The notes under the pieces are model-generated. The model was not told the DNA's origin and did no database searches. It was given only the letters and a program-made list of their open reading frames with translations. Of a stretch of DNA of 41,581 bases, positions 18,021-39,229 are shown in pieces. A program made the translations under genes and the position numbers. This DNA comes from a virus, in IMG/VR virus record IMGVR_UViG_3300044621_000408, positions 1 through 41,581 of that record. One strand, written 5' to 3'. Position 1 is the stretch's first letter, and each line of letters begins with the position of its first letter.

Positions 18021-18437
18021 ATGGACAAACGAACGCTGAAACTGGAGGTCGAAGACCTCCTGGAAATCTTCCTGAAGGCTGACGAGGACTTCCTCAAGGT
18101 GAAGGAGACACTGACCCGAATAGGAGTCTCGTCGAGGCAGGAGAAGAAACTCTATCAGAGTTGCCACATACTGCACAAGAGAGGCAAGTACTACATCGTC
18201 CACTTCAAGGAACTCTTTGCATTGGACGGGCTTCCCACGGACATAGACGACACTGACATCGGACGAAGGAACACGATTGCGAACCTCATGGACGAGTGGG
18301 GGCTTCTCACCATCGTCGATCAGAAGAAGGCATCCGATCCCATCGTCTCGCTGGCGCAGATCAAGATAATCCCCCACAGGGATAAGGCTGAATGGGAACT
18401 CATACCCAAGTACCACATCGGCAAGAGAAAGAACTGA
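18021..18437 (+). CDS. regA: Translational repressor RegA
   Basis: This 138-residue protein shares with T4 RegA (122 residues) the strings DFLKVKETLTRIG, YQSCHILHKRGKYYIVHFKE, RRNTIANLMDEWGL and the C-terminal KYHIGKRKN. RegA binds the start region of many early phage mRNAs and blocks translation. In T4 it also represses itself, so the hairpin and start region upstream are natural places to look. GAGGA precedes the ATG. Confidence 0.95.
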   Translation: MDKRTLKLEVEDLLEIFLKADEDFLKVKETLTRIGVSSRQEKKLYQSCHILHKRGKYYIVHFKELFALDGLPTDIDDTDIGRRNTIANLMDEWGLLTIVDQKKASDPIVSLAQIKIIPHRDKAEWELIPKYHIGKRKN

Positions 18438-18445
18438 GACAACCG

Positions 18446-18452
18446 ATACATA
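18446..18452 (+). promoter_or_regulatory. Possible late-type promoter element ATACATA
   Basis: ATACATA lies 24 nt before the ATG at 18477 in the short gap after regA. The leader includes AGGAG. The match is exact, but the spacing is longer than in the leaderless cases. Confidence 0.4.
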
Positions 18453-18476
18453 GATGAACAACAGGAGATCTTTGCT

Positions 18477-19796
18477 ATGCGCCCGACCGTGACCTTGTGC
18501 ATGATCGTCAAGAACGAATCGCACATCATCCTTGAATGCCTCAACTCTGTCTACAAGTACATCGACCATTGGGTCATCTGTGACACGGGTTCCACCGACA
18601 ACACCAAGCAGATAATCACCGACTTCTTCAAGGAGAAGGGGATACCAGGTGAACTCCACGACCATGAGTGGAAGGACTTCGGTCACAACCGAACCCTTGC
18701 CTTCAAGGCTGCTGAAGGCAAGGCTGACTATGCGTGGGTGATCGACGCGGACGACTACCTCGAGGGAGAACTCATACTTCCCGATGGAACGGACATGGAT
18801 AGTTTCGCACTGCGCATCAAGCGCGGTTCCTTCTTCTGGTGGAGGAACCAGGTCTTCAAACTCGATGCCAAGTGGGAGTACAAGGGAGTCCTGCACGAAT
18901 ACGCGATATGCGAGAAAGCCAATCCCAAGATCGGCAAACTCGAAGGCAACTACAACATCTGCGCAAGGACGATGGGTGGAGCCAGGAATGTAGGCATCGA
19001 TCCCGTGGAGAAGTACAGCAGGGATGCAGTCGTGCTGGAGGAAGCCATGAAGGCTGATCCGACCAACACCCGCAACCAGTTCTACCTCGCGCAGTCCTAC
19101 TTCGACTCACAGCAATGGGAAAAGTCCGCAGAGGCTTACATGAAGCGCGTGGAGATGGGTGGTTGGGAAGAGGAGGTTTTCTACTCACTGTACCGCATTG
19201 CCATGATCGCAGCCATACAGAACAAGCCGTTCGGGGAGATAAAGGAGAAGTTCCTCCTTGCATGGCGGTTCCGTCCCATCCGCGCAGAACCGATCTACCA
19301 GATCGCCAGGATGTACATGATGGTGCAGGAGCCAAGGCTTGCCTGGCTCCATGCCAAGATGGCAGCGGAGATGCCATATCCGCACTTCGACATCCTGTTC
19401 ATCGACAACGACATCTACAGGTGGCAGATGGACGACATACTGGCTTCCACATCGTTCTATCTGCACCGATATGAGGAAGGGCTTGGTGTGGCAAAACGCC
19501 TTCTCAACAACCCCTTCTATCCCGACCCGGAGAAGCAGAGGATGGCTCAGAACATACAGGCATACGAGCAGAAGTTGGTTGAGTATGCTCCGATGCTTGC
19601 AGCGATGAAGCAGAAGGATGAGGAATACAGGCAGAACCCGTTCGGAACCGACTCCGTGACGATGAGCGTTACGGCACATCCTCCTGTGCCGCCGACTCCT
19701 GTCAAGGCAGAGGTTGCCGAGACGGACGATCAGCGCAGGGAACGTCTCAAGAAGTTGCTGAACCGCAGCAAGGACAGGAAGAAGGCTAGCCGATGA
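18477..19796 (+). CDS. Family 2 glycosyltransferase with TPR-like helices
   Basis: This 439-residue protein has an N-terminal GT2 fold: TLCMIVKNESHIILECLNSV, ICDTGSTDNT and the metal-binding DXD variant VIDADDYLEG near residue 90. The remainder is helical (residues 190-380) with repeats of TPR character (RNQFYLAQSYFDSQQWEKSAEAY). The last 60 residues are Pro/Lys-rich and probably flexible. It would transfer a sugar from a nucleotide sugar to an unknown acceptor. It is separated from the main glycan cluster by about 8 kb and sits between regA and dUTPase, which is unusual for T4-like phages. Confidence 0.85.
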   Translation: MRPTVTLCMIVKNESHIILECLNSVYKYIDHWVICDTGSTDNTKQIITDFFKEKGIPGELHDHEWKDFGHNRTLAFKAAEGKADYAWVIDADDYLEGELILPDGTDMDSFALRIKRGSFFWWRNQVFKLDAKWEYKGVLHEYAICEKANPKIGKLEGNYNICARTMGGARNVGIDPVEKYSRDAVVLEEAMKADPTNTRNQFYLAQSYFDSQQWEKSAEAYMKRVEMGGWEEEVFYSLYRIAMIAAIQNKPFGEIKEKFLLAWRFRPIRAEPIYQIARMYMMVQEPRLAWLHAKMAAEMPYPHFDILFIDNDIYRWQMDDILASTSFYLHRYEEGLGVAKRLLNNPFYPDPEKQRMAQNIQAYEQKLVEYAPMLAAMKQKDEEYRQNPFGTDSVTMSVTAHPPVPPTPVKAEVAETDDQRRERLKKLLNRSKDRKKASR

Positions 19797-23181: not shown

Positions 23182-24666
23182 ATGCCCAAGTTCTACACCA
23201 ATGTCGCCATCCGTGGCAACAGGATACTCCATCGCGGCTACGAGAACGGCAAGCCGTTCGCCGAGGAGGATGTGTACAAGCCCACCCTCTTCATCCTCAG
23301 CAAGAGGAAGAGCGAGTGGAAGTCCCTCGACGGCAGACCCGTCGAACCTATGGTGTTCGACTCCATCGATTCCTCCCGCGAGTTCATGGAGAAGTACTCG
23401 GATGTCTCCTCGTTCCCCATCTTCGGGAACACGGACTATGTCTATCAGTTCATAGGCGACGAGTACAAGGGAGAGGTTGACTACGACTTCAACCAGTTGC
23501 GCATCGCCTACATCGACATAGAGACCGAGTCCGAGGCAGGATTCCCCGACATCGACACGGCAAACGAGCGGATCAATGTCATCACCATCATCTGCGGTTC
23601 CAAGAAGTACACATTTGCCCTTGGCAAGGTGGACAAGTCCAGGATGCCGCCCGATGTCCTCGTCAACCTCTACGACAACGAGGAGCAGATGCTGAGTGAC
23701 TTCCTGCTGACATGGCAGAGCCTTGGGATCGACATCGTGACGGGGTGGAATGTCGAGTTCTTCGACATCCCGTACATCGTCCACAGGATCGGAAATCTCC
23801 TCGGGGAGCAGTATGCGCGGAAACTCTCCCCTTGGGGGAAGTTGCGCAAGAGAAAGGTCGAGTTCCACGGCAAGGAGAGCGTCACCTACGAGATGGTCGG
23901 CATCAACACCATCGACTACTATCAACTCTACCGAAAGTTCACATTCGTCACGCGGGAGTCATACAAACTAGGAGACATCGCGCAGATCGAACTCGGGGAG
24001 ACCAAGTTGGATCACTCCGAGCACGACAACTTCTCGGAGTTCTATCGGAACGACTTCACCAAGTTCGTGGAGTACAACATACGGGACACCGTCCTTGTGC
24101 AGAAACTTGAGGCAAAGAAGCGGCTGCTTGAGCAAGCGGTAGCCCTTGCCTATTCAGCCAAGGTCAACATGCAGGATGTCTTCTCGCAGGTCAGGACATG
24201 GGAGCAGATCATCTACCATCACCTCAGCGAGAAGAGGATCGCGATCCCACAGAAGCGGAGGAACCGAAAGGACAAAGCGTTCAAGGGGGCATATGTCAAG
24301 CCACCTCAGGTCGGAATGCACAGATGGGTGGTGTCCTTCGACCTTGATGCCCTCTATCCGATGCTCATCTGCCACTACAACCTGAGTCCCGACACCAAGA
24401 CTTCCGATGGACTCAGGAGATCGATCACGGCATCGTCCGTGATGAAGCAGTCAAACACCTACATGGTGGAAATCGAAAAGGCACGGCACAAGAACCTTTC
24501 CCTTGCTGCCAACGGAACGACATACCGCAAGGACAAGCAGGGATTCCTTCCCGAACTCATGGAGAAGATGTACAAGCAGCGCAAGGAGTACAAGAGGCTG
24601 ATGCTTGAGACCAAGGCTAGCCTTCGTGATGTAGAAAATGAACTAAAAAAACGAGGTTTGATGTGA
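23182..24666 (+). CDS. 43: DNA polymerase gp43, N-terminal part (43A)
   Basis: This 494-residue fragment of family B polymerase holds the 3'-5' exonuclease motifs YIDIETES, GWNVEFFDIPY and YNIRDTVLV, plus polymerase motif A SFDLDALYP. It stops after ENELKKRGLM, before motif B and motif C, which lie beyond a homing endonuclease gene. From about 24625 the codon style shifts toward AT-rich codons (GAT, GTA, GAA, AAT, AAA) and stays so through the endonuclease. T4 gp43 is 898 residues; here the two halves together would give about 860. Split gene 43 with a mobile nuclease between the parts is known in some T4-like phages. The ATG at 23182 lies 8 nt after the methyltransferase stop codon. Confidence 0.92.
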   Translation: MPKFYTNVAIRGNRILHRGYENGKPFAEEDVYKPTLFILSKRKSEWKSLDGRPVEPMVFDSIDSSREFMEKYSDVSSFPIFGNTDYVYQFIGDEYKGEVDYDFNQLRIAYIDIETESEAGFPDIDTANERINVITIICGSKKYTFALGKVDKSRMPPDVLVNLYDNEEQMLSDFLLTWQSLGIDIVTGWNVEFFDIPYIVHRIGNLLGEQYARKLSPWGKLRKRKVEFHGKESVTYEMVGINTIDYYQLYRKFTFVTRESYKLGDIAQIELGETKLDHSEHDNFSEFYRNDFTKFVEYNIRDTVLVQKLEAKKRLLEQAVALAYSAKVNMQDVFSQVRTWEQIIYHHLSEKRIAIPQKRRNRKDKAFKGAYVKPPQVGMHRWVVSFDLDALYPMLICHYNLSPDTKTSDGLRRSITASSVMKQSNTYMVEIEKARHKNLSLAANGTTYRKDKQGFLPELMEKMYKQRKEYKRLMLETKASLRDVENELKKRGLM

Positions 24667-24683
24667 TTTGAGTGCGATTGGTA

Positions 24684-24717
24684 ATAGATATTTTCGGAAA
24701 GGGAGAACCCGAAAATG
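24684..24717 (+). promoter_or_regulatory. Hairpin around the ribosome binding site of the homing endonuclease
   Basis: TTTTCGG pairs with CCGAAAA around a loop holding AAGGGAGAA, the likely Shine-Dalgarno sequence; the second arm runs into the ATG at 24715. T4 intron endonuclease genes are also held back by structures at their ribosome binding sites, so translational control is plausible. Approximate ends only. Confidence 0.5.
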
Positions 24718-25413
24718 CATTACCTCGTCTACAAGACCACCAACACGAAAACATTTAGGTATTACATAGGCGCACATAGAACGGACAACCTGAACGATTC
24801 CTATCTCGGTAGTGGAGTTGAGTTGGATAGGGACATTGAGGCTTATGGTGTTGATGCCTTTAGCCGAGAGATTCTAGAAGAATGCTCTACTGCGCATGAG
24901 ATGTATGAACGGGAAAGAATCTTGATTGGAGACTTGTGGTCATCCGATCCTCTCTGCTACAATCTGAGACCTGGTGGAAAGGGCGGGTGGGATCATGTTG
25001 ATAACTCTGGAGACAGGAATCCAATGAGAAACCCAAGCAGTCTCGCTAAATGCGTAGCAGCGGGTAATAAAACTAGAGCCGCTAATCCAGAGAAATATGC
25101 TAGAGTTGCCATAGAAAATGCAAAACTGGCGACAGCCGCCATCAGAGGGAAGAAACGACCATCGCACTCGGAAGCCATGAAACAGATATCTCGGGATATA
25201 TGGTCAATCCATAGAGATAAGATGTTAGACTCACTCAACCAAAGTTACCTGGTAGTAAAGGAGGATGGAACATCTTTTGAGACAAATCGGCTGAATCAGT
25301 GGTGCAAGATACAGGGATTACCATTCACTACTCTTTGGAAATCTGCTGTTTCGGGAAAGGTCATAAAGAAAGGCAAACTGAAAGGTTGGTCATGTCGAAT
25401 TACGAGCAAATGA
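24715..25413 (+). CDS. GIY-YIG homing endonuclease splitting gene 43
   Basis: This 232-residue protein has an N-terminal GIY-YIG-type domain: YLVYKTTN, YYIGAH, SYLGSG, then a basic and acidic helix (SREILEECSTAHEMYERERILI) with the catalytic Glu region. The middle is Lys/Ala-rich linker (NPSSLAKCVAAGNKTRAA) and the C-terminus is helix-turn-helix-like (LNQWCKIQGLPFTTLWKSAVSG, KGWSCRIT), a DNA-binding module seen in phage homing nucleases. The gene is AT-richer than its surroundings. It leaves no room for a group I intron core, so it looks like a free-standing mobile gene. Its end overlaps the presumed start of the C-terminal polymerase part. Confidence 0.9.
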   Translation: MHYLVYKTTNTKTFRYYIGAHRTDNLNDSYLGSGVELDRDIEAYGVDAFSREILEECSTAHEMYERERILIGDLWSSDPLCYNLRPGGKGGWDHVDNSGDRNPMRNPSSLAKCVAAGNKTRAANPEKYARVAIENAKLATAAIRGKKRPSHSEAMKQISRDIWSIHRDKMLDSLNQSYLVVKEDGTSFETNRLNQWCKIQGLPFTTLWKSAVSGKVIKKGKLKGWSCRITSK

Positions 25414-25529
25414 GCAATGAGGACTTGCTACTGCTCCGTAAGCGGTTGATTGATGATGCATCTTTGTATCACAATCGACAACTGGTTCGTAAGATCCAGT
25501 TGAACTCCGCTTACGGCGCAGTAGGTTAG
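25392..25529 (+). pseudogene. 43: DNA polymerase gp43 middle piece with motif B, ended by a 5-nt duplication
   Basis: ATG 25392 follows AAAGG by 6 nt, and ATG 25410 overlaps the endonuclease stop. The frame encodes 45 residues including SLYHNRQLVRKIQLNSAYGAVG, polymerase motif B, then stops at TAG 25527-25529. The next conserved residues (NEYFRYYDEE) lie in another frame. The break is at TAGGTTAGG (25522-25530), a direct repeat of TAGG with a 5-nt period; removing TAGGT would restore an uninterrupted SAYGAVGNEYFRYY. Whether the duplication is real or a sequence error is not known. Confidence 0.75.
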
Positions 25530-26503
25530 GAAACGAATACTTCCGCTACTACGACGAGGAGATTGCCGAAGCCATCACTCTGTCGGGGCAACTTGCCGTG
25601 CAATGGGTCGAGCGCGACATCAACAGGTTCATCAACAAGGCAATCGGGACGGACGGAGAGGACTATGTCATCGCAATCGACACCGACTCCGTCTACCTAG
25701 ACATGGAGAAGGTCGTGGGGAAGACCCTTCCCGGCTGCAAGGACGAGCGCAAGATAGCCTTGTTCCTAGACAAGTTGTCCAAGGAAGCCATACAGAATGT
25801 CATACGGAAGTCCTACGAGCGTCTGTCGGAGACGATGAACTCCTACGCCAACCACATGAGGATGAAGCGGGAGTGCATCGCATCCAAGGGGATATGGACG
25901 GGGAAGAAGCGGTACATGCTCAATGTCAGGATAGGCGAGGAGGATGTCTACCTGCCGAAGCCAGACCTGAAGATCACGGGCATAGAGACGGTCAGGTCAT
26001 CCACTCCAGAGGTCGTCAGGAATGCCCTGAAAACAGCCATAACCATCGTGATGGACAAGGACGAGGAGGACATCCATCGGTTCGTGAAGACCTTCCGCGA
26101 GGAGTTTGCGGGGCTTCCTGCCAACAAGGTGGCTTTCCCCCGAAGTTGCAACGGCATGAAGGACTACTTGGATGCTTCCAGCATCTATTCCAAGGGGACT
26201 CCAATCGCGACCAAGGCATCGCTCGTCTACAACTGGCATCTGCGCAAGATGCGCCTGAACACCATGTATCAGGAGATCCGCGAGGGAGACAAGATCAAGT
26301 TCGTCTACCTCAAGGAACCCAATCCGCTTGGAGAGAAGGTGGTCGCATTCGTCGGAAGGATGCCCGTGGAGTTCGGACTCGACGGCTACATAGACCGCGA
26401 CATGCAGTTCGTGAAGGCATTCGTGGAGCCTCTCAGGACGATCCTTGCCGTGATCGGATGGAACGAGGAGAAGAAGAGCAGCCTCGACGGATTGTTTGCA
26501 TGA
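25529..26503 (+). CDS. 43: DNA polymerase gp43, C-terminal part
   Basis: From the GGA codon at 25529 the frame continues with NEYFRYYDEE, AITLSGQLAVQWVERDINRF, motif C DTDSVY and the KKRY motif, then the thumb domain, ending in SLDGLFA, a clamp-binding-like C-terminal peptide similar to that of T4 gp43. The first start codon in this frame is GTG 25598, too late to include the conserved NEYFRYYD segment. Alone, a product from 25598 would lack motif B, so it would not complete 43A. The codon style from 25529 on matches 43A before 24625. Confidence 0.88.
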   Translation, partial: GNEYFRYYDEEIAEAITLSGQLAVQWVERDINRFINKAIGTDGEDYVIAIDTDSVYLDMEKVVGKTLPGCKDERKIALFLDKLSKEAIQNVIRKSYERLSETMNSYANHMRMKRECIASKGIWTGKKRYMLNVRIGEEDVYLPKPDLKITGIETVRSSTPEVVRNALKTAITIVMDKDEEDIHRFVKTFREEFAGLPANKVAFPRSCNGMKDYLDASSIYSKGTPIATKASLVYNWHLRKMRLNTMYQEIREGDKIKFVYLKEPNPLGEKVVAFVGRMPVEFGLDGYIDRDMQFVKAFVEPLRTILAVIGWNEEKKSSLDGLFA

Positions 26504-26579: not shown

Positions 26580-26882
26580 ATGAATGTGAAACTGGTCAGA
26601 CTGATGACGGGCGAGATGATCCTCGCGGACACGACTGAGAAGGGCGATTCGATCACCCTGAAGAAGCCAGCATGGATCGCACAGGTCAAGCCAGGCGAGT
26701 TTGCCCTCGTCCCGTGGCTTCCCCTTGCCAAGGATGATTCGGTGACCATCGACCGCAGCAAGTTCATCTACTGCGTCGATCCTGAGACGGGCATCCTGAA
26801 CGAATACAGCACGGCATTCGGATCGGGTCTCGTCGTTCCTAACGGAGTCAAGCCTGTCAGCCTCAAGTTGAGCGGAGAGTGA
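26580..26882 (+). CDS. Sm-like small protein, paralogous in fold to the 5677 gene
   Basis: This 100-residue protein begins [18 protein letters not shown] and has [23 protein letters not shown] and [19 protein letters not shown]. The same core (VKL-L-GE-I-A, then P-I- and a FALVPW strand) recurs in hypotheticals of T4-like environmental phages and is related to the N-terminal domain of the protein at 5677. The Sm-type beta barrel suggests RNA or nucleic acid binding, without proof. It is coupled to UvsX by overlap of the GTGA region. Confidence 0.72.
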
Positions 26883-26887
26883 ACAAC

Positions 26888-27907
26888 ATGAACTTCCTGA
26901 AGCAGATCGTGAAGGAGTCTGGCAACAAGTTTGCCAGCGTTGTTGAGGATGGAATCGACGGAGCCGATGTCGCGGGATTCGTGGACACTGGTTCCTATGC
27001 TTTCAATGCGCTACTTTCAGGATCCCTTTATGGAGGAGTGGCAGACAACAAGATCATTGCCCTTGCGGGCGAGTCTGCCACGGGAAAGACCTACTTCACC
27101 CTAGGGATCGTCGCGCAGTTCCTCAAGGACAATCCCGAGGGAATGGTACTCTACTTCGACTCTGAGCAAGCGGTGACATCCGACATGTTCAAGGGAAGGG
27201 GAGTGGACTCGCAGAGGGTGGCTGTGTTCCCCGTTGCCACCATTGAGGAGTTCAAGACGCAGTGCGTGAACATCGTTGACAAGGTTCTTGAGATGGACGA
27301 GAGCGACAGGAAGCCGATGATGATCGTCCTCGACTCGCTAGGGATGTTGTCCACCGAGAAGGAAGTCAACGACTCAGCCGAAGGCAAGAATGTCCGCGAC
27401 ATGACTAGGGCGCAGGGGGTCAAGGCTACATTCCGCGTCCTGACAATGAAGTTGGGCAAGGCAAGGATCCCCCTTGTGATGACCAACCACACCTACGATG
27501 TCGTGGGTGCGTATGTCCCCACCAAGGAGATGGGTGGCGGAAGCGGTCTGAAGTATGCCGCATCCACCATCGTCTACCTCTCCAAGAAGAAGGAGAAGAA
27601 CGCGGACGGGGATGTGATCGGCAGCATCATCCATTGCAAGTTGTACAAGTCTAGGCTCACCAAGGAGAACCAGCAGGTCGATGTGCAGTTGAACTACGAG
27701 ACTGGTCTGAACCGCTACTACGGGCTGACCGACATCGCGATCAACCACGGCATCTTCAAGAAGGTCTCAACAAGGATCGAACTTCCCGATGGCAAGACTG
27801 CCTTTGAGAAGAACATCAACGAGAACCCAGAGAAGTACTTCACCGAGGATGTGATGATGCGGCTTGAGGAAGCAGTTGCCAAGGAGTTCAAGTATGGAAC
27901 GGCATAA
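26888..27907 (+). CDS. uvsX: RecA-like recombinase UvsX
   Basis: This 339-residue protein (T4 UvsX is 391) has Walker A GESATGKT at 61-68, [10 protein letters not shown], the Walker B-like [11 protein letters not shown] near 139-149 and the DNA-binding loop region with [21 protein letters not shown]. It forms filaments on single-stranded DNA and pairs homologous duplexes, helped by UvsY (3238) and UvsW (4190). ATG 26888 is chosen over the in-frame GTG 26879 because GGAGAG has correct spacing only for the ATG. Confidence 0.95.
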
Positions 27908-28571
27908 GTTGTGCATCATCGTTCCTTTCAGGGACAGGGATGCGCACCTGAAGGAGTTCGTTCCTGCCATCAGGCAGTACCTTGCCGACAGCGGCATCGA
28001 CCATGAGATCCTTGTGGTGGAGCAGACGCACGGAAAGCCGTTCAACCGCGCCAAGTTGCTCAACATCGGGTTCCTGGAGGCATCCAAGGATTGCGACTAC
28101 TTCGTCATGCACGATGTGGACATGATTCCCTTCAGGAACCTGGTCAACAACGGTCCCGACTACTCCTACAGGGATGAACCGACCCACCTTGCAAGCGCGG
28201 CAAGTCAGTTCAACTTCACCCTGCCTTATGGGGGATACTTCGGTGGAGTCACCTTGTTCCCGCGCAAGGCATTCGATCAGGTGAACGGCTACAGCAACGA
28301 GTACTGGGGATGGGGAGCCGAGGACGACGACATGCTCTACCGCTGCCACTATGCGGGACTGAAGGCAGCGAGGATTGAGAACGGGTTCTTTCAGTCCCTC
28401 AACCACGACAGGAAGATAGACGAGCAGGACTACAGGAAGAACATAGACCGCGTCAAGGAGATGTGGGATCGGAAACTCGACTGGAAGAGCGAGGGTCTGA
28501 ACTCCTGCAAGTACGAGGTGAAGGAACGAGCCGACATGGAAGGCTACAGGAAGGTCGTGGTGGAGATTTGA
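27894..28571 (+). CDS. Galactosyltransferase-like protein (GT7 family)
   Basis: This 225-residue protein has the layout of beta-1,4-galactosyltransferases: [37 protein letters not shown], the metal-binding DVDM (MHDVDMIPF), [22 protein letters not shown] and [13 protein letters not shown] with the acceptor-binding EDDD. It would transfer galactose or a related sugar from UDP-sugar to an acceptor, often GlcNAc, though specificity cannot be read from sequence. ATG 27894 has AAGGAG upstream and overlaps the uvsX end. First gene of the glycan cluster. Confidence 0.85.
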
Positions 28572-29476
28572 GCCTGAAGGTTCTGTATGTCAACCCATGG
28601 GGTGGCTTCGATGCCGACTTCGCTAGGAACAGGTTCTTCCTGACCCATGCGCTCAAGGACATCGACCCCGACTGCGAGATATCCGTCCTTCCGCACGGAT
28701 CGGTTCAGGACATAACGAGGTACGACCTTGCCATATCCATCTACCATCCGTCTGTTTCGATGAAGTCCGTCAATGCCGCCAGGAAGATCGCCTTCACGGG
28801 AGAGAGTTACGATGTGGTCGCAAACACTCCCGACTGCGATGCCTACATCGGGTTCGACCTCGAGGAAGACCATGACGGCAGGAACTACAGGTACTTCCGC
28901 TTCCCTCTCTATGCGGGATACCACATGGACTACTGCGTGAGGCATGGCATCTCATCCTTTCAGGGTCTGCGGGAGAAGTACTCGAGGGACAAGATCGCGA
29001 AGGTGTCCGCAGTCGTGTCCAACCCATCCAATGCCATCCGCAACCAGGTTCTGAACTGGTTGATTCAGAACTCCCATTGCGATTCTGGCGGGCGTGTGCT
29101 CAACACGGTCGGCAGCGTGGATGACAAGTTGGACTTCACGGCAAACTATGCCGTGGGCATGGCATTCGAGAACCTACCAAAGAGGGCTTACATCACGGAG
29201 AAGATCTACGAGGTGTATGCGGCTGACTCCGTCCCATTCTACTTCGGCGCACCCGACATAGCCGAGGAGTTCAATCCCGACACATTCCTCTCGCTCGACA
29301 TCTCGGGAGATCCTATGCCTTCCGTGGAGAGAGTCCTATCCGTCATGCGGGATCCCACGGAGCAGAAGAGGATGAAGTCCATCGACCCATGCGAGGGGTA
29401 CAGGTCTGAGCGATACATACGGGGCGGCAGGAAGATTCTGTCTGACATCATTCGCAATGTTCTGGAGACCAAGTGA
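28568..29476 (+). CDS. Fucosyltransferase-like protein (GT10 family)
   Basis: This 302-residue protein has the GT10 (alpha-1,3/1,4-fucosyltransferase) C-terminal signature: VGMAFENLPKRAYITEKIYEVYAADSVPFYFGAPDI, FNPDTFLSLD. The conserved AFEN, TEKI and P-FYFGAP segments bind GDP-fucose. The N-terminal part (VLYVNPWGG, FFLTHALKDI) is less conserved, as is usual. The start is probably TTG 28568, overlapping the previous stop (TTGA), because no ATG lies before the conserved N-terminus. It may act on the product of the preceding GT7 enzyme. Confidence 0.85.
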   Translation: MSLKVLYVNPWGGFDADFARNRFFLTHALKDIDPDCEISVLPHGSVQDITRYDLAISIYHPSVSMKSVNAARKIAFTGESYDVVANTPDCDAYIGFDLEEDHDGRNYRYFRFPLYAGYHMDYCVRHGISSFQGLREKYSRDKIAKVSAVVSNPSNAIRNQVLNWLIQNSHCDSGGRVLNTVGSVDDKLDFTANYAVGMAFENLPKRAYITEKIYEVYAADSVPFYFGAPDIAEEFNPDTFLSLDISGDPMPSVERVLSVMRDPTEQKRMKSIDPCEGYRSERYIRGGRKILSDIIRNVLETK

Positions 29477-30270
29477 AGAACCTCATATTGTCCACATCGT
29501 CGGGATACAACTGGGAGCAGATCAAGAAGTGGAATCTGTCCGCTGCCGCAACGGGGAACGAGGTATGCAACATACTGGTGAACCCCAGCGACGAACTGTG
29601 CAAAGACATCGACCAGAATGTTCCTGAGCATGGGTGGAGGGTATTGAGGTTCGATCCCCGTTCCCTGAACAAGCCTCCCCACAACCTACGGTTCCTGTTT
29701 CAGTACAAGTACCTGATGGAAATCAAGGGCAAGCATCCATATGTCGTGGTCACCGACAGCAGGGATGTCTACTTCCACTCCGATCCCTTCCCCCGCATCA
29801 AGGAGATACTGGATGCAATGGGCAAGGACATCGTCTGTGGCAGCGAATGCATCGCATACAAGGACGAGCACTGGGGAAACGGGAACCTCATGGAGGGGTT
29901 CGGCTATGTCTACGACGATTTCTGCGGGAACGAGATCTGCAATGTCGGAGTCCTGTGCGGCAAGACGGAGGCTGTCGCGGAACTCTGCCTGATGATCTTC
30001 ACCATGTGCCACCACAATCCCGCAAGCGTCTCCGACCAGTCATCCTTCAACATCCTCATGGGAACCGATTTCGGCAGGAAGCGCATAGCGGTTACCCGCC
30101 CTTCTGATGGCGTGATGGTGCATCTCGGCACGGTAGGCGTGGACAAGTTCAGGGACAAGTTGACGGAGAAGCCTTCATGGAAGGACGGGGAGATCCCTTC
30201 GGTCGGAGGCAAGGTCATTCCGATCATCCATCAGTACGACAGGGTGGACACAAGCAAGTGGGGGATTTGA
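29473..30270 (+). CDS. Putative glycosyltransferase (DXD-type)
   Basis: This 265-residue protein starts at GTG overlapping the previous stop (GTGA). It begins NLILSTSSGYNWEQIKKW and has VVVTDSRDVYFHSDPF, where DSRD occupies the position of a metal-binding DXD motif, followed by GSECIAYKDEHWGN and CNVGVLCGKTEAVAELC. This pattern matches nucleotide-diphospho-sugar transferase-like phage and host proteins of uncertain specificity. Acceptor and donor are unknown. Tight coupling on both sides supports a shared pathway. Confidence 0.7.
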   Translation: MKNLILSTSSGYNWEQIKKWNLSAAATGNEVCNILVNPSDELCKDIDQNVPEHGWRVLRFDPRSLNKPPHNLRFLFQYKYLMEIKGKHPYVVVTDSRDVYFHSDPFPRIKEILDAMGKDIVCGSECIAYKDEHWGNGNLMEGFGYVYDDFCGNEICNVGVLCGKTEAVAELCLMIFTMCHHNPASVSDQSSFNILMGTDFGRKRIAVTRPSDGVMVHLGTVGVDKFRDKLTEKPSWKDGEIPSVGGKVIPIIHQYDRVDTSKWGI

Positions 30271-31088
30271 TGAGTGCTACCATAGTGACTGCGTTCTATG
30301 ACATCGGTCGATCCGAGTGGGAGTCACCCATGTTCCGTAGATCGGTGAATGAATACATGGAAGCCTTCTCCAATCTTCTTCGCTTCGACTATCCGATGAT
30401 AGTGTTCATCGATGCCCGTCATCACGACCGTGTCATGTCGATGGTGGAATCTTCGGAGTTCAAGCACAACAAGACTATCATACCAATCGACGAGGATTGG
30501 ATGAACCAAAACATATGGGTCTGGAGCAGACTTGGTCGAGAGCGTGAGATCATGCAATCCCAAGAATACCGATCTCTCATACCAAGAAGGATGGAGTTGC
30601 GCTATCCCGAGAATGTGAATCCCATGTACACCATACTTACCCACTCAAAGGTGGATTTTCTCTGCCATGCCATAGAGAATGATGTGTCGGATTCGCGATT
30701 CTTCATGTGGGTTGACTTTGGTTATCTCAGCAAAAAGGCGATGGCGGGGTTCGTTCCCCATCGACACATCGATTGTTCCAAGATGATTGACGGCAAAGTC
30801 ATCCTATGCTGCCTGAACGGTGGATTGAGCAGTCGGGATTTCGATGTTCTCTACACACTACAGGCAGCGCCGGAGAAAATGGCTGGTGGTGTGCTCGTCG
30901 GAGACAGGGACAGCCTGATCAAGTTCAGAGACATCAGCCACCGTTGTCTTCTCAGATACCAAGAACTGAATCTAGCAGATGACGAACAAGCAGTATGGCT
31001 GCAATGCCTGTTGCAGGATCCGTCTCTGTTCTCCGTGCATGTGTTTGATGGGTGGCATTGCAGTCTCAAGTACTTTACCAAGGAGTGA
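30270..31088 (+). CDS. HtrL/YibB-like glycosyltransferase family protein
   Basis: This 272-residue protein has TIVTAFYDIGRSEW, FDYPMIVFIDARHHDR and NPMYTILTHSKVDFLCHAIE, then FMWVDFGYL, the pattern of the HtrL/YibB family found in lipopolysaccharide and glycan gene clusters of Gram-negative bacteria. The role in sugar transfer is inferred from that association. ATG 30270 overlaps the previous stop (TGATG). The codons shift toward AT-ending forms here and stay so through 31774, suggesting a different recent source. Confidence 0.82.
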   Translation: MSATIVTAFYDIGRSEWESPMFRRSVNEYMEAFSNLLRFDYPMIVFIDARHHDRVMSMVESSEFKHNKTIIPIDEDWMNQNIWVWSRLGREREIMQSQEYRSLIPRRMELRYPENVNPMYTILTHSKVDFLCHAIENDVSDSRFFMWVDFGYLSKKAMAGFVPHRHIDCSKMIDGKVILCCLNGGLSSRDFDVLYTLQAAPEKMAGGVLVGDRDSLIKFRDISHRCLLRYQELNLADDEQAVWLQCLLQDPSLFSVHVFDGWHCSLKYFTKE

Positions 31089-31090
31089 AT

Positions 31091-31774
31091 GTGAAAACAG
31101 CCATATTGCTGGTGGGAAACCTTCGCACATGGGACATGTGCAGAGACAACTTCATCTCCGTCTTTGGTGAACATCGACCAGATGTCTTCGTCACCACCTA
31201 CGACATGCAGTATGCGTACCATCCGTACATCAAGCAGTCTCTGAACTTCTATGAGGATCAAATGCTGACCAACGACTCTATCATGTCGAAGTTCGCAGGA
31301 CTGAACCTAGTCGGGGTTAGGATCGACGAGATATCGACTTATGTGGAAAGGAATGTCAAGCCGTTCATCTCCAATAGGTTTCCAAAGGATGCATTCCTAA
31401 GCCTTTCACAGTACTTCAAACTGCACGACGGTCTGAAGATGGTGCAGGATCACGAACAGGCGATTGGAGAGAAGTACGATGTCATAGTCAAGACACGCTT
31501 CGATGTCTTGCATGACAGGTATTCCGTCCCTCCCGTCGATAAAATACACATCGACGGTTCTGGGGCTGGTGTGTTCCCATGTGACTGGATCTTCGCTTGC
31601 AGCAGGGAAAATGCACTGAAGATGGACTCCTTCATCGTCGAAGAGATGAAGGACATGAAGAACGAAACGAGCCTCGTGGATCTTCCGCACAAGTTGTTCC
31701 TGAATGGAATCGTGTCAACCAAGGCAGAACTTGTACCGATGCCTCTCATCAAGGGGATCGTGAGGGCTAGATGA
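31091..31774 (+). CDS. Putative glycosyltransferase-like protein
   Basis: This 227-residue protein starts at GTG 31091 with AAGGAG 6 nt upstream. It begins VKTAILLVGNLRTWDMC, has DVFVTTYDMQYAYHPYIKQS and, centrally, YDVIVKTRFDVLHD, where the TRFD motif resembles a DXD-type site in proteins from surface polysaccharide loci. GAGVFPCDWIFACSREN follows. I do not assign donor or acceptor. It belongs to the same AT-shifted pair as the HtrL-like gene. Confidence 0.68.
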   Translation: MKTAILLVGNLRTWDMCRDNFISVFGEHRPDVFVTTYDMQYAYHPYIKQSLNFYEDQMLTNDSIMSKFAGLNLVGVRIDEISTYVERNVKPFISNRFPKDAFLSLSQYFKLHDGLKMVQDHEQAIGEKYDVIVKTRFDVLHDRYSVPPVDKIHIDGSGAGVFPCDWIFACSRENALKMDSFIVEEMKDMKNETSLVDLPHKLFLNGIVSTKAELVPMPLIKGIVRAR

Positions 31775-32385
31775 CCATAGAAGCGGTTCTCTTTGATCTG
31801 GACGGAGTGCTTGTCGATGCCTGTGATTGGCACTACGATGCCCTGAACGGGGCATTGGTCGAGGCAGGATACACGGCAATCGACCGCGAGTCTCATCTCT
31901 CCACATACAACGGACTTCCCACTCGGGTAAAGTTGCAGATGCTTGGCATTCCCGACGATGCAGCGTCCAGGATCAACGAGCAAAAGCAGAAGCACACCCT
32001 TGACATCATACGGAAGTCGGCTAAGATCATGCCTGAGAAGATCGAACTCCACAGGTATCTCAGGGAGCGGGGAATCAAGATAGCCTGTGTGACCAACTCC
32101 ATAGAGGAGACGGCTAGGGAAATGCTCACGGCAACGGGACAGATGGAACACATCGACCTGCTTGTGACCAACGAGATGGTGAAGAGGAACAAGCCTCATC
32201 CCGATTGCTACAACCTGGCGATTGCCGAACTTGGAGTGAATCCGATCTCGTGTCTCTGCGTGGAAGACTCCCCGAAGGGAATCATGGCAGCGGTCAACAG
32301 CATGGCAGGGCATCTTTGGGCTGTGACCGATCACACGAAGGTGACCCTTGATGTATACTTGAGGTTCATGGAGAACGAACTATGA
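31771..32385 (+). CDS. HAD-superfamily hydrolase, phosphoglucomutase-like
   Basis: This 204-residue protein has the HAD motifs: DLDGVLVD at residues 8-15 (nucleophile Asp8, acid-base Asp10), CVTNS near 106, KRNKPHPDCYNLA with the conserved Lys, and CVEDSPKG near 167. A small helical cap follows motif I, as in beta-phosphoglucomutase-like and sugar phosphatase enzymes. In this context it probably removes or moves a phosphate on a sugar used by the neighbouring transferases. ATGA overlap with both neighbours. Confidence 0.85.
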   Translation: MTIEAVLFDLDGVLVDACDWHYDALNGALVEAGYTAIDRESHLSTYNGLPTRVKLQMLGIPDDAASRINEQKQKHTLDIIRKSAKIMPEKIELHRYLRERGIKIACVTNSIEETAREMLTATGQMEHIDLLVTNEMVKRNKPHPDCYNLAIAELGVNPISCLCVEDSPKGIMAAVNSMAGHLWAVTDHTKVTLDVYLRFMENEL

Positions 32386-33113
32386 AGATTCTGATACCGA
32401 TGGCAGGAGAGGGAAGCAGGTTCGCCAGCGCGGGATACACATTCCCCAAGCCCTTGATCGATGTCGAGGGCAAGCCGATGATCGAACGGGTGGTCGAGAA
32501 CTTCTCCGACTATGCATCCGAGTTCATCTTCCTTGTCCGCAAGGAGCACCTGGAGAAGTATCCAGGCATGAGATCGACCCTCCACAGGATAACCAAGGGA
32601 CGATTCCGAATCGTGGAGGTCGATAGGCTCACGGAAGGTGCTGCTTGCACCGCGCTGCTTGCCGAGGAGTACATTGACCGAGACGAAGACCTGCTCATAG
32701 CCAACTCCGATCAGATACTGGAATGCTCCATGGAGAACTTCGGCTACCTCAAGACACACTCTCCTGTGGATGGAATCGTCTTCTGCTTCAATGCCACCCA
32801 CCCCAAGTGGTCTTTCGTGGAGATTGGTGATTTTCCCGCAAGGTATGGGAGTGTGATTCGCGTGGCAGAGAAGGAACCCATCTCAGACATTGCCACCTGC
32901 GGTGTCTACTGGTATCGCAAGGGGTCGGACTTCGTGAAGGCAGCGAAGCAGATGGTCGGCAAGAACATCCGCGTCAACAACGAGTTCTACATCGCACCTG
33001 TCTACAACGAGTTGATCGGTGTCGGTGGAACGGTGATTCCCTTCTTCGTTGACGAGATGCATGGGATCGGCACACCTGAAGACCTGAATGCATACCTGAA
33101 CAGGAACAGATGA
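32382..33113 (+). CDS. Sugar-phosphate nucleotidyltransferase
   Basis: This 243-residue protein begins MKILIPMAGEGSRFASAGYTFPKPLIDVEGKPMIE, with the nucleotide-binding G-x-GSR-F-FPKPL signature, and has LIANSDQIL (metal site), FCFNATHPKWSFVEI and VNNEFYIAPVYNELI. It would join a sugar phosphate to an NTP to give an activated donor for the cluster's transferases. The sugar is not determined. It overlaps the HAD gene by ATGA and the next gene by ATGA. Confidence 0.85.
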   Translation: MKILIPMAGEGSRFASAGYTFPKPLIDVEGKPMIERVVENFSDYASEFIFLVRKEHLEKYPGMRSTLHRITKGRFRIVEVDRLTEGAACTALLAEEYIDRDEDLLIANSDQILECSMENFGYLKTHSPVDGIVFCFNATHPKWSFVEIGDFPARYGSVIRVAEKEPISDIATCGVYWYRKGSDFVKAAKQMVGKNIRVNNEFYIAPVYNELIGVGGTVIPFFVDEMHGIGTPEDLNAYLNRNR

Positions 33114-33559
33114 AGATCATATCCCACAGAGGCAACCTGACTGGCGCAAAGCCAGAGTGCGAGAACAATCCGACATACATCGATGCCGCCATCGCGGCAG
33201 GTTTCGATGTAGAGGTCGATGTGTGGTATGTCGATGGGCAGTTCTTCCTAGGACACGATGCACCGACCTACCTGGTGGAATCCACATGGATAGGCGACAG
33301 GACGAAGCGTCTTTGGTTCCACGCAAAGAACCACGATGCGCTCGTCGCCCTGAACTTCAGGTTTCACTCCACCAGGGTCTTCTGGCACGAAACCGACAGG
33401 ATGACCTTTGTCAGCGACGGAACGCTGTGGATGTATCCTGGCAACTACAGCCCGTATGGAATAACGGTGGAACTTGGCTCGGCTAGGGATATTCCTCCCG
33501 TTGCTGGAGTATGCACCGATCACCCCGTGTCTTGGTCAATGAGTTTGAGAAAAGGATAA
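33110..33559 (+). CDS. GDPD/PI-PLC-like phosphodiesterase domain protein
   Basis: This 149-residue protein has MKIISHRGNLTG, ENNPTYIDAAIAAGFDVEVDVWYVDG and FLGHDAPTY, matching the His-Arg-Gly, E-D and H-D catalytic segments of the glycerophosphodiester phosphodiesterase fold. It is shorter than a full GDPD (about 240 residues), yet the pattern WFHAKNHDALV, FWHETDRMT and a final GVCTDHP is regular, so it is a small family form instead of a truncation. Role may involve phosphodiester-linked glycans; that is speculative. Confidence 0.75.
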   Translation: MKIISHRGNLTGAKPECENNPTYIDAAIAAGFDVEVDVWYVDGQFFLGHDAPTYLVESTWIGDRTKRLWFHAKNHDALVALNFRFHSTRVFWHETDRMTFVSDGTLWMYPGNYSPYGITVELGSARDIPPVAGVCTDHPVSWSMSLRKG

Positions 33560-33563
33560 CACC

Positions 33564-34118
33564 ATGTCAACGCTTTTGCCGCATGTATTGAAGAAGTACA
33601 AGAGAAACGATGTGTTCGTGGAGACTGGCTCCTACAAAGGAAGCGGAATACAGGTAGCACTCGATGCTGGATACAAGAAGGTCATCAGCATAGAGATTCA
33701 TTCTGGATACCACGAAATCTGCAAGCAGCGGTTTTCTTCCGAGATAGAGGCGGGAATCGTGGAACTGCATCTTGGGGACTGCCTGAACAAGTTGGAGGAG
33801 ATAGTCCCGTTATTGCCGACACCAGCAACATTCTGGCTGGACGCCCATATAGATTGGGAGTGTGGTGTTTCTGGAAAGACTCCATCGCCTCTGATCTATG
33901 AACTAGGCATACTGCGCAATCTTTCGTCTGTACGAAACCACACCATCTTGATAGATGACATGCGGGTGTTCAGAACCAAGATCGGATGGGGAGTATACAA
34001 TCCCGTTGGACAGAAGGAGATAGAGGATGCGATCAGAGAGATAAACTCCTCGTACATCATCTCATACGAACCAAATGCGGTTCAGGAAGATGATGTGCTT
34101 GCTGCGTATATCCCTTGA
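33564..34118 (+). CDS. SAM-dependent methyltransferase-like protein
   Basis: This 184-residue protein has VFVETGSYKGSGIQVALDAGYKKVISIEI (a SAM-binding motif I and acidic motif II), then LHLGDCLNKLEEIV and TFWLDAHIDWECG, features of class I methyltransferases seen in glycan loci. It lacks a known substrate-recognition region. AAGGA precedes the ATG. AT-ending codons are more frequent than in neighbours. It is the last gene before the gp41 promoter. Confidence 0.72.
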   Translation: MSTLLPHVLKKYKRNDVFVETGSYKGSGIQVALDAGYKKVISIEIHSGYHEICKQRFSSEIEAGIVELHLGDCLNKLEEIVPLLPTPATFWLDAHIDWECGVSGKTPSPLIYELGILRNLSSVRNHTILIDDMRVFRTKIGWGVYNPVGQKEIEDAIREINSSYIISYEPNAVQEDDVLAAYIP

Positions 34119-34149: not shown

Positions 34150-35547
34150 ATGCTCGAACACACCATCCTCCGCGAACTGACCCGCGACGAAGGGTACTAC
34201 AGGAAAGTCCTTCCGTTCCTCAAGGAGGAGTACTTCGGGGACAAGGACACCAAGATCGTCTTCGGCATGATCTCGGAGTACCTTCAGAAGTACGACTCCA
34301 AGCCCACCAAGGGGGCGATGGAGATCGTCCTAGACTCCAGGAAGAACATCGATCCTGAGACGATCAGGCAATGCAAGGAGACACTTGCATTGGTCTTCTC
34401 CGACGAGAAGCCTCCAGCGATGGACTGGCTCGTCGAGCAGACGGAGAAGTTCTGCAAGGACAAGGCACTCTACAACGCCATCCTTGAGTCGATCCACATC
34501 ATCGACGGGAAGTCCAAGGACAAGGATGTCGGCTCCCTTCCCAAGATGCTGTCGGACGCACTCGCGGTCTCCTTCGACACGAACATCGGTCACGACTACA
34601 TCGAGGACTGCGGGAAGCGGTACGAGTTCTACCACAGGACGGAGAACCGCATACCGTTCGACATAGAGCAGTTCAACACCATCACGGGGGGAGGGGTTCC
34701 ACGGAAGAGCCTCAACATCCTGATGGCAGGTCCAGGCGTGGGCAAGTCGATGTTCCTGTGCCACTTCGCGGCATCCTGCATGACGCAGAACCTCAATGTC
34801 CTCTACATCACATGCGAGATGTCGGAGGAGAGGATCGCGGAGAGGATCGATGCCAACCTCATGGACATCCCGATGGAGGATCTGAGGAAACTTCCAGCGG
34901 ACATCTATGCCAAGAAGATGGGCAAGATCCGCAAGCAGTACACGGGAAGGCTGATCGTCAAGGAGTATCCGACATCGACTGCCAATGCCAACCACTTCAG
35001 GGCATTGCTGAACGACCTCAAGACCAAGAAGGGGTTCGTTCCCGATGTGATATTCGTGGACTACCTCAACATCTGCGCCTCAGCCAGGATCAAGATGAGC
35101 GCATCCGTGAACTCCTACACCTATGTCAAGGCAATAGCGGAGGAGATCCGCGCACTTGCGATGGAGTTCGATGTCCCGATCTTCTCTGCCACTCAGGTCA
35201 ACCGCATCGGCTTCAACAGCACCGATGTCGGTCTTGAGAACACATCGGAGTCCTTCGGTCTTCCCGCGACTGCCGACCTGATGCTTGCCCTGATTGCCAC
35301 GGAGCAACTTGAGGAGCAGGGGCAGATCATGGTCAAGCAGTTGAAGAACCGCTACAACGACATCTCCCGCAACAGGAAGTTCACGGTCGGCATCGACAGG
35401 TCGCGCATGAAGATACTTGATGTCGGCAGCGCGGTAGTGGGGGACGAGGGGTTCGGAAAGAAGGGTGAAGATCCCGTGAAGCCCAAGTTCTCCAAGAAGC
35501 AGGACATGGATGGAGAGGATAGATACTCGGACTGGAGTTTCGACTGA
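34150..35547 (+). CDS. 41: Replicative DNA helicase gp41 (DnaB-like)
   Basis: This 465-residue hexameric helicase (T4 gp41 is 475) has an N-terminal domain of about 150 residues, Walker A AGPGVGKS at 193-200, YITCEMSEERIAER, Walker B VIFVDYLNI near 305, and FSATQVNRIGF with the sensor region, followed by an arginine-finger-type KNRYNDISRNRKFTVGIDRSRM. The C-terminus is charged (EDRYSDWSFD). It unwinds the fork ahead of gp43 and pairs with primase gp61, the next gene (TGATG overlap). The start is at the promoter without a ribosome binding site. Confidence 0.96.
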   Translation: MLEHTILRELTRDEGYYRKVLPFLKEEYFGDKDTKIVFGMISEYLQKYDSKPTKGAMEIVLDSRKNIDPETIRQCKETLALVFSDEKPPAMDWLVEQTEKFCKDKALYNAILESIHIIDGKSKDKDVGSLPKMLSDALAVSFDTNIGHDYIEDCGKRYEFYHRTENRIPFDIEQFNTITGGGVPRKSLNILMAGPGVGKSMFLCHFAASCMTQNLNVLYITCEMSEERIAERIDANLMDIPMEDLRKLPADIYAKKMGKIRKQYTGRLIVKEYPTSTANANHFRALLNDLKTKKGFVPDVIFVDYLNICASARIKMSASVNSYTYVKAIAEEIRALAMEFDVPIFSATQVNRIGFNSTDVGLENTSESFGLPATADLMLALIATEQLEEQGQIMVKQLKNRYNDISRNRKFTVGIDRSRMKILDVGSAVVGDEGFGKKGEDPVKPKFSKKQDMDGEDRYSDWSFD

Positions 35548-37480: not shown

Positions 37481-39229
37481 ATGTCTGGTCACAACTTTTC
37501 TCGTTTCATTGGAGACGGATCCCTTTCTCGTTCGCGAAAAGGTGACACCTATTCACTTGTAACCACCATCAAGGACATCCCCAGGGGAACCAAGTTCCTC
37601 AGGGTGGACGAATCCGAAGCCGTCTACCCCCTCCTGTATCGCAGGGGAGAGGGAAACCACCGCATCTGCCTCTTCAACGAAGAACACGGACATGTCGTCA
37701 TCACGGGTGACCCCCTGAAGATCGACACGATGTTCTCGTTGGTGGAGAAGGCTCCAGAACCCAAGCCCAAGCCATCCGAACCCAAGCAGCCCCTGACGGA
37801 GGCTGCTGCCCCGAACCCCAACCAGCCCTTCACCGTCATCTCCGTCAAGGGAGAGAGAGGCGACAAGGGAGACAAGGGAGACCGTGGTCCAATCGGGTAT
37901 CAGGGTGAGCGTGGTCCCGTTGGTCCAAAGGGAGACAAGGGAGATCAGGGAGAGAAGGGCGACTTCGGCGGTCCTCCAGGTCCAAGAGGAGAGAAGGGAG
38001 ACCCTGGAGAGCGCGGTCCCTACGGTCCAAAGGGAGACAAGGGAGACCGTGGCGAGAAGGGTGATCTCGGAGAGGTAGGATCGAGAGGTCCAAAGGGAGA
38101 GAAGGGCGACAAGGGAGACAAGGGAGACCAGGGCGAACGCGGCATCAAGGGTCTTCGTGGAGAACGGGGTCCGCAGGGAATACAGGGACCAAAGGGCGAC
38201 CAAGGCGAACGCGGCTACATGGGACCGATTGGTGCTCAGGGCATCCAAGGTGAGCAGGGTGAGCCTGGACAGAGGGGAGCGAAGGGCGACAAGGGTGACA
38301 AGGGAGATTCCGCCATCGTCTCCGCTCAGTATCCGCTCATCCTGAGCGAAGACAATGTCATCAGCCTGGACAGCAAGAACCTTCTTGAGCGTCTTCAGAA
38401 GGTCTTCACGCCGCTCTCCAACCCAAACCTAGACCTATCCAAGTTCGACTGGCTTGCCGCATCGGGTGGTGGCGTGGGAGTCAAGTGGAACGGCAACTAT
38501 GTCCGCTCCACGATCAACGACATAGACTTCCGTGGCAACGGCATTTCCGTCAAACAGGCGGGTGGTGGTGTCATCGTAGACCTTTCGGGTCTCGTTGCCG
38601 CTGGGGGCGCGGGAGGTGGTGGTGTGACTGCCGATGTCGGCGTGTTGTACCTCAAGGGAAACACCGCTGCCACTCCCATCGGAGTCATCAACGGAAGGTC
38701 GGTGGTGGAGGGAACCTATCAGACGGGAATGCTCCATGGCTTCACCAAGGACGCGGGAACCAACTCGCTGAAGTACATCGGTGAGGGTGGACGATTCCAT
38801 GTCGTGGTCTCCTTCAACTTCTACGAGGGAAATCAGAATACATGTGGATTCTACATCGGCTGCAACCGCGACATCTCCAGCGGTCTCAGCGCGAATGGAG
38901 ACAGGATCTCCGAGTCGGAGGTCTATGCCAACTCCTCCAATCCATCCGCGCAGCCCATAGCGGCAACCATACAGACCGTCATTGACCTGAACAAGGACGA
39001 CCGTCTGTTCATGATCGCGCAGAACAAGGATGCGACCACAAGCATCACCGTCGAGTTCATGAAGATGGTTGCTGCTCCCATCACCAGGATCACGGGTGGA
39101 TATGTCGATTCCATCAACGGACTGAGCGGAGCGATTGGAATCACCGCAGGGCAGTTCATAGAGATAACGCAGAGCGGAAACACCCTGACGATATCGGGCT
39201 TGTCCGTGATACATGGAGGGGTCTTCTAG
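37481..39229 (+). CDS. Collagen-like tail fibre or head fibre protein
   Basis: This 582-residue protein has an N-terminal domain (1-123), a Gly-X-Y region (124-276) and a C-terminal beta-rich region (about 280-582). The triplets are rich in GDK, GER and GEK, predicting a trimeric collagen helix. One extra Gly near 163 shifts the register, so the helix may be bent or have a hinge. The C-terminal part shows alternating strands with GVGVKWNGNYVRS and a final SINGLSGAIGITAGQFIEITQSGNT module also found in the 41118 protein. Host binding or virion decoration is plausible. Its N-terminus (SRFIGDGSLSRS) may attach it to the virion. Confidence 0.85.
   Translation: MSGHNFSRFIGDGSLSRSRKGDTYSLVTTIKDIPRGTKFLRVDESEAVYPLLYRRGEGNHRICLFNEEHGHVVITGDPLKIDTMFSLVEKAPEPKPKPSEPKQPLTEAAAPNPNQPFTVISVKGERGDKGDKGDRGPIGYQGERGPVGPKGDKGDQGEKGDFGGPPGPRGEKGDPGERGPYGPKGDKGDRGEKGDLGEVGSRGPKGEKGDKGDKGDQGERGIKGLRGERGPQGIQGPKGDQGERGYMGPIGAQGIQGEQGEPGQRGAKGDKGDKGDSAIVSAQYPLILSEDNVISLDSKNLLERLQKVFTPLSNPNLDLSKFDWLAASGGGVGVKWNGNYVRSTINDIDFRGNGISVKQAGGGVIVDLSGLVAAGGAGGGGVTADVGVLYLKGNTAATPIGVINGRSVVEGTYQTGMLHGFTKDAGTNSLKYIGEGGRFHVVVSFNFYEGNQNTCGFYIGCNRDISSGLSANGDRISESEVYANSSNPSAQPIAATIQTVIDLNKDDRLFMIAQNKDATTSITVEFMKMVAAPITRITGGYVDSINGLSGAIGITAGQFIEITQSGNTLTISGLSVIHGGVF
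37850..38308 (+). repeat. Collagen-type Gly-X-Y coding repeats
   Basis: About 51 triplets encode G-x-y with frequent GDKGDK and GERG units, written by a recurring GGNGANAAG pattern. The array has one register shift at the codons for GDFGGPP. Repeats this regular are prone to expansion and contraction between strains. Confidence 0.9.

Follow-up and report, generated by a model that had tools for sequence, protein, structure and literature searches.

A nine-gene glycan cassette between uvsX and gp41 of a T4-like aquatic phage, a probable exchangeable operon for remodelling the host surface

A glycan operon between uvsX and gp41

The window analysed here is a whole 41,581-bp virus record (IMG/VR record IMGVR_UViG_3300044621_000408, positions 1 to 41,581) from a T4-like, aquatic phage, with T4-type genes for the major head protein, clamp loader, DNA polymerase, UvsX, gp41, primase and thymidylate synthase. 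Between the uvsX recombinase gene (26879..27907, + strand; phrog_97, E = 4e-87) and the gp41 replicative helicase gene (34150..35547, + strand; phrog_19, E = 5e-119), a site that we call slot 1, lie nine open reading frames (ORFs), G1 to G9, at 27894-34118, where the initial annotation had placed a nine-gene glycan locus. The overlaps are nearly continuous, as had been proposed: the spacings from uvsX through G9 are -14, -4, -4, -1, +2, -4, -4, -4 and +4 bp, the first being a 14-bp overlap of uvsX with G1, and G9 is followed by gp41 after 31 bp. All genes are on the same strand, and the layout is that of one operon continuing from uvsX, with predicted translational coupling.

Relatives in other phages were found for eight of the nine cassette genes, and six belong to named families (GT7, GT10, HtrL/YibB, HAD, nucleotidyltransferase and GDPD-like). 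The nine proteins all lack strongly hydrophobic segments, and the window contains no tRNAs. At 52.7% GC the insert is close in composition to the window (53.8%), which offers no hint that it was acquired recently. The window itself, at 54%, differs in GC from close relatives (41-48% in L158, L133 and L119) despite UvsX proteins that are 92-95% identical, perhaps reflecting a different host.

Slot 1 is filled in close relatives and empty in many loci of other clades

We compared IMG/VR loci fetched via UvsX and gp41, with larger slot-1 gaps computed from contig coordinates. All 12 contigs with UvsX at least 84% identical and both ends visible carry 6.2-13.1 kb of differing glycan genes at slot 1. 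Outside this clade, 38 loci (not all independent, with UvsX 30-79% identical) show just 8-889 bp from uvsX to gp41. Because relatives with empty uvsX-gp41 sites exist, the cassette is, by this comparison, a true insert, as the initial annotation had worded it. The slot has been refilled in more distant clades (12-17 kb in G010, G016 and G017; about 10 kb in L015). Separate IMG/VR assemblies (L114 and L131, and partly L132) contain the cassette again, about 99-100% identical, which argues against a chimera, and a nucleotide search of the cassette among 50,697 phage records gave no match. Genes at slot 1 turn over between phages whose UvsX proteins are 92-95% identical, and the cassette is most likely a horizontally exchanged, swappable glycan-modification operon.

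The inserts of the clade are mosaic. Among 18 of them, GT7 occurs in 10, GT10 in nine, G3 in nine, and relatives of the HAD protein, the nucleotidyltransferase and the phosphodiesterase in seven, nine and eight. Seven of the 18 start instead with a different block: GDP-mannose 4,6-dehydratase-type epimerases in six of these, and a fungal-type GT15 (PF01793, 2e-44) in four. The GT15 alpha-mannosyltransferase genes of these type-B inserts include L138:6704-7657 (PF01793, 2e-44) and L187:19489-20448 and L190:18269-19228, the latter two 56-58% identical to that of L138. At or near slot 1, L016:2147-4039 and L140:9163-11037 hold heptose-kinase-like and cytidylyltransferase-like genes that, as read from the sequence, resemble the HldE pathway split in two.

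Five glycosyltransferase-like genes

That the locus builds a glycan is well supported, and family searches agree with the earlier labels GT7, GT10, HtrL/YibB, HAD, nucleotidyltransferase and GDPD-like. G1 (27894..28571, + strand) is a GT7 protein with both domains (Pfam GT7C 5e-24, GT7N 1e-21) and conserved UDP-galactose (UDP-Gal) and N-acetylglucosamine (GlcNAc) site motifs, and is predicted to be an inverting beta-1,4-galactosyltransferase. It aligns over its whole length with bovine B4GALT1 (phmmer 4e-43), keeping an 11-residue motif, PYxxYFGG and WGWGxEDDD, and carries a His at the metal site; the Tyr of PYxxYFGG, retained in G1, is B4GALT1 Y289, the residue tied to the use of Gal over N-acetylgalactosamine (GalNAc). 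No GT7 relatives of G1 were found by tblastn among the 50,697 phage records, and they are rare in bacteria, occurring in one of 399 Pseudomonadota genomes.

G2 (28568..29476, + strand, TTG start) is a GT10 protein above the Pfam cut-off (1.6e-8) and a predicted alpha-1,3-fucosyltransferase, in which the C-terminal motif that binds GDP-fucose (GDP-Fuc) and the catalytic Glu are kept. Its alignment with Helicobacter pylori fucosyltransferase (FucT; 1.8e-16) includes FEN...YITEKI (Y-(I/V)-TEKI), IRN and FTGE. The family activities fit a product in which G1 and G2 together would yield a Lewis-x-like branch, Gal-beta-1,4-(Fuc-alpha-1,3)-GlcNAc. Our literature search found no paper on GT7 plus FucT Lewis-type genes of phages.

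Profile searches found no family for G3 (29473..30270, + strand, GTG start) or G9. The AlphaFold2 (AF2) model of G3 is confident (pLDDT 88.8, pTM 0.90) and its best PDB matches by Foldseek are GT-A enzymes, headed by a GT6 alpha-1,3-galactosyltransferase (4.8e-10, TM 0.55); on the strength of this model we class G3 as a GT-A-fold glycosyltransferase that is not a member of GT6. It had been described as DXD-type, and while the fold bears out a GT-A enzyme, the metal motif is D95-x-x-D98 and not DXD; D95, D98, E125, D188-Q189 and HQYDR are invariant. PF05704 did not match G3, in a search whose positive control was silent too.

G4 (30270..31088, + strand), a putative glycan enzyme, belongs to the HtrL/YibB family (Pfam PF09612, 7.4e-33; 114.7 bits against a cut-off of 24.1, covering profile positions 2-263 of 267), scoring under the NCBI equivalog cut-off. 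For G5 (31091..31774, + strand, GTG start), which had been listed as a further transferase, weak matches (phrog_13607, 2.6e-5; DUF7796, 4e-4) suggest a putative glycosyltransferase, with homologues in L026, L067 and L079.

A conserved sugar-activation core, and G9

The next three genes form a core module. G6 (31771..32385, + strand) is a HAD hydrolase (HAD_2, 3e-30) resembling beta-phosphoglucomutase (bPGM). D9, D11, H21, K72, K141 and E165-D166 are invariant in 86 sequences, and D9, D11, H21 and K72 (catalytic residues of HAD enzymes plus the His and Lys of the cap) can be aligned to bPGM. Since these residues are kept in all 86, a role for G6 as a mutase feeding G7 is attractive; it scores 73.5 against the bPGM equivalog cut-off of 189.4, phosphatases are equally near, and a phosphatase is the alternative. 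G7 (32382..33113, + strand) is a sugar-1-phosphate nucleotidyltransferase (NT) by Pfam NTP_transferase (7e-7; PF00483, 29.5 against a cut-off of 21.2), PDB 4evw (5e-25) and phrog_3980 (8e-62), and its signature G9-x-G11-S-R-F...PKPL is invariant. G8 (33110..33559, + strand; phrog_34507, 1e-33) had been called a small GDPD-like enzyme. H6-R7, E35-x-D37 and G48-H49-D50 are invariant in 34 sequences, and GDPD structures are the best matches both by profile and by Foldseek with a confident structure model (pLDDT 95.4). At 149 amino acids (aa) it is about half the normal GDPD length, with no Pfam GDPD match and a target TM of about 0.4, and we describe it as a half-length GDPD/PLC-like phosphodiesterase (PDE).

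These genes travel together. Among 80 viral NT loci, a HAD gene lies within 2.5 kb in all 80 and directly upstream in 73, and the PDE is present in 58; with NTs collapsed at 90%, the corresponding counts are 27, 23 and 21 of 27. Fusion of HAD and NT into one gene is seen in three cyanophages (S-CAM9, DSL-LC03 and B23) and on the complete Methylophilaceae LSUCC0401 chromosome. On that chromosome the fused gene lies downstream of rml genes and is followed by the short PDE and then by genes for a GalE-type epimerase, a Wzx-type flippase, a GT2 protein and an enzyme of WecA type. A HAD-NT-PDE set with phage-like neighbours and GDP-fucose-type genes also occurs in L087 (NHDW01000006.1), labelled as a Methylococcaceae metagenome-assembled genome; this contig may be viral, not bacterial. 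As for a known named pathway for a HAD, NT and GDPD core (heptose, CDP-glycerol or phosphocholine), no search result or paper made the link.

G9 (33564..34118, + strand) is a putative class I S-adenosylmethionine methyltransferase. The earlier methyltransferase-like label is consistent with the motifs FVETGSYxGxG, IE, LGD, DAH and DD, which are common to homologues in L016 and S-SM2, but there is no family match (FtsJ 0.14, under the cut-off); a search of viral contigs returned relatives from the same virus only.

A second slot beside regA

A second site for such cassettes, slot 2, lies between regA (18021-18437; Pfam, 5e-41) and a stand-alone GT2-type glycosyltransferase gene (18477..19796, + strand; phrog_13126, 9.5e-22; Pfam GT2, 4e-14). 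It is empty in the window (18437..18477): there, and in six relatives from the same clade, regA and the GT2 gene are 23-43 bp apart. In L002, L007, L009 and L013 (L003 is a duplicate of L002) it is filled by a glycan cassette of 10.5-11.1 kb that includes HAD-NT-PDE; slot 1 falls outside the visible sequence of these slot-2 phages. Two NTs, one from a cassette in slot 2 (L002) and one from a cassette in slot 1 (L119), share 95% identity, indicating that the module moves between sites.

Other features of the window

The gp43 DNA polymerase gene is split (23182-24666 and 25598-26503, within region 23182-26503) around a GIY-YIG/SegE-like homing-endonuclease ORF at 24715-25413, a candidate intron or split gene. 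Adjacent to it lies the gene for a 714-aa N6/N4 DNA methylase (21030-23174) whose sequence is broken up by an intein (Intein_splicing 7e-9, LAGLIDADG_3 5e-4). On the far side of the cassette, a collagen-like fibre gene (37481-39229) is followed by an ORF of 425 aa (39250-40527) with no Pfam or PHROG match and with relatives, 41-74% identical, in many related phages; it may encode a fibre or receptor-binding protein.

What the cassette may modify

The initial annotation offered three targets for the glycan (virion proteins, the host surface and modified DNA), which prove unequal. We think it reasonably probable that the cassette remodels the lipopolysaccharide (LPS) or lipooligosaccharide (LOS) of the host from within the cytosol, probably to exclude competing phages. 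Genomic context favours this target: the core module occurs in a bacterial O-antigen locus, and HtrL stands beside rfaD-waaF-waaC-waaL in Escherichia coli K-12 and within the LOS outer-core locus of Acinetobacter baumannii (PMC4172580). The turnover among near-identical phages also resembles that of surface and LPS loci, and similar proposals have been published (PMC7029224, PMC7824862). Weighing against it are the collagen-like virion-fibre gene 3 kb from the cassette, a possible glycan acceptor; slot-1 inserts that do not all contain the HAD-NT-PDE core; and the scope of the bacterial comparison, in which a single copy of the core within an O-antigen locus was inspected gene by gene.

That fibre gene is a reason for thinking instead that the operon glycosylates virion proteins, tuning adsorption, which we hold to be unlikely. 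The collagen repeats (PF01391, 3e-25) are conserved in cassette-bearing relatives, the glycosyltransferases appear to be cytosolic, as virion glycosylation would require, and the collagen-modifying enzyme LH3 is among the fold matches of G3, though as one of many GT-A enzymes. Collagen-like genes are, however, also present in relatives with an empty slot (L160, L166, L172 and L175); the 2-oxoglutarate (2OG)-Fe(II) hydroxylase PF13640, needed for hydroxylysine-linked glycans, is absent from the window and a 156-kb relative; and the core is common to a bacterial O-antigen locus, which has no virion. Still less probable is a secreted or cell-bound capsule or exopolysaccharide that would protect the infected host or aid dispersal: the many glycosyltransferases and the sugar-activation genes would suit it, and capsule/LPS-type clusters are described in jumbo cyanophages (PMC7824862), but with neither a flippase (PF01943) nor an initiating transferase (PF00953) in the window or in relatives of 146-157 kb, a full host capsule system would be needed.

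DNA-glucosylating phages carry their glycosyltransferases in the replication region, as T4 does with beta-gt near uvsX, and since the cassette also sits beside uvsX among replication genes, modified phage DNA bases could be suggested as the acceptor. We regard this as very improbable. No member of PF00303, the dCMP hydroxymethylase family that supplies 5-hydroxymethylcytosine in a T4-type system, was found in the window (an incomplete genome) or in three relatives of 146-157 kb, and no TET/JBP match was found in six records, in a search made without a positive control. Moreover, the DNA methylase of the window is of the intein-bearing N6/N4 type, GT7 and GT10 enzymes act on sugars rather than bases, and the insert content varies among close relatives.

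Under the favoured LPS/LOS reading, G6 (as phosphomutase or phosphatase) and G7 would convert a sugar phosphate to one nucleoside diphosphate sugar, with G8 as an accessory phosphodiesterase, and G1-G5 would act as cytosolic glycosyltransferases. G1 would attach Gal in beta-1,4 linkage to a terminus resembling GlcNAc, and G2 would place an alpha-1,3-Fuc beside it, giving the Lewis-x-like branch; G3-G5 may add further sugars and G9 may methylate the product. The acceptor would most likely be the host LPS/LOS core or a lipid-carrier-linked O-chain, both made in the cytosol. Expressed early, together with the replication genes, the cassette would then change the surface of the infected cell and keep sibling and rival phages from adsorbing again.

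That such a pathway is close to self-contained, as had been suggested, is not supported: the cassette could make at most one activated sugar and has no genes for UDP-Gal or GDP-Fuc synthesis, a lipid carrier, Wzx or WecA, or a ligase. Wzx-type (PF01943) and WecA-type (PF00953) genes, found in a bacterial control, are absent from the window and the 156-kb relative (G000, G001), and the locus, having neither initiating transferase nor flippase, is not a complete O-antigen or capsule locus. The phage must therefore rely on host donors, presumably UDP-Gal and GDP-Fuc, and on host export, which could proceed via Wzx, MsbA and WaaL. The host is probably not cyanobacterial, since psbA was found in none of seven large relatives.

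We can also imagine, as a tentative and rather doubtful extension, a two-slot, serotype-like exchange in which the constant HAD-NT-PDE module combines with swappable blocks of eukaryote-typical glycosyltransferases (GT7, GT10 and GT-A, or GDP-mannose dehydratase and GT15) to give a phage-specific glycan, here Lewis-x-like, that would mark the cell as taken.

These results map a hotspot for glycan cassettes to the part of the T4-like genome that is most conserved, with clean empty and filled comparators and an alternative slot. The old conjecture that T4-like phages of aquatic habitats alter host LPS to keep competitors out thus becomes testable gene by gene, and G1 and G2 give it a sharp chemical prediction. 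HAD-NT-PDE is a widespread, putative sugar-activation unit common to viruses, SAR11 and Methylophilaceae.

Comparison with known systems

Capsule/LPS-type gene clusters have been described in cyanophages, including jumbo phages (PMC7824862). Those of P-SSM2, S-SM2, Bellamy, S-CAM9, DSL-LC03 and B23 resemble the window in belonging to T4-like phages, in combining mosaic glycosyltransferases with sugar-activation genes and in sharing the NT and PDE families, three of them in the fused HAD-NT form. They differ in lying, in the isolates examined, in the tRNA/psbA-side plastic region rather than between uvsX and gp41, in often carrying epimerases and heptose/aldolase genes, and in having no GT7 relative, none being present among the 50,697 phage records. 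In pelagimyophages, glycosyltransferases occur in a host-recognition cluster, and modification of the host O-chain against co-infection has been proposed (PMC7029224); they are hypervariable like the cassette, but are mostly GT8 and sit with tail-fibre genes, outside the replication operon.

The Methylophilaceae LSUCC0401 O-antigen locus has the same order of HAD-NT, there fused, and short PDE, but also rml, Wzx and WecA-type genes, whereas the phage has the core and glycosyltransferases only. Methylophilales phage Melnitz, the closest isolate by gp41 (58%), has the same flanks and no glycan cassette; its interval from recA/uvsX to gp41 contains just a 2OG-Fe oxygenase gene and one further small gene. 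As to the branch itself, alignments indicate that G2 keeps the active-site motifs of the H. pylori FucT that makes Lewis-antigen LPS, and G1 those of animal B4GALT; the H. pylori Gal step uses a glycosyltransferase family other than GT7. Earlier publications already cover both glycan clusters of aquatic T4-like phages and the idea of superinfection exclusion. Within the searches made, what appears to be new is slot 1 between uvsX and gp41, with comparators both empty and filled; slot 2 between regA and the GT2 gene; the core of HAD, NT and PDE; and the block that joins GT7 and GT10, an animal-type galactosyl/fucosyltransferase pair, to a GT-A enzyme.

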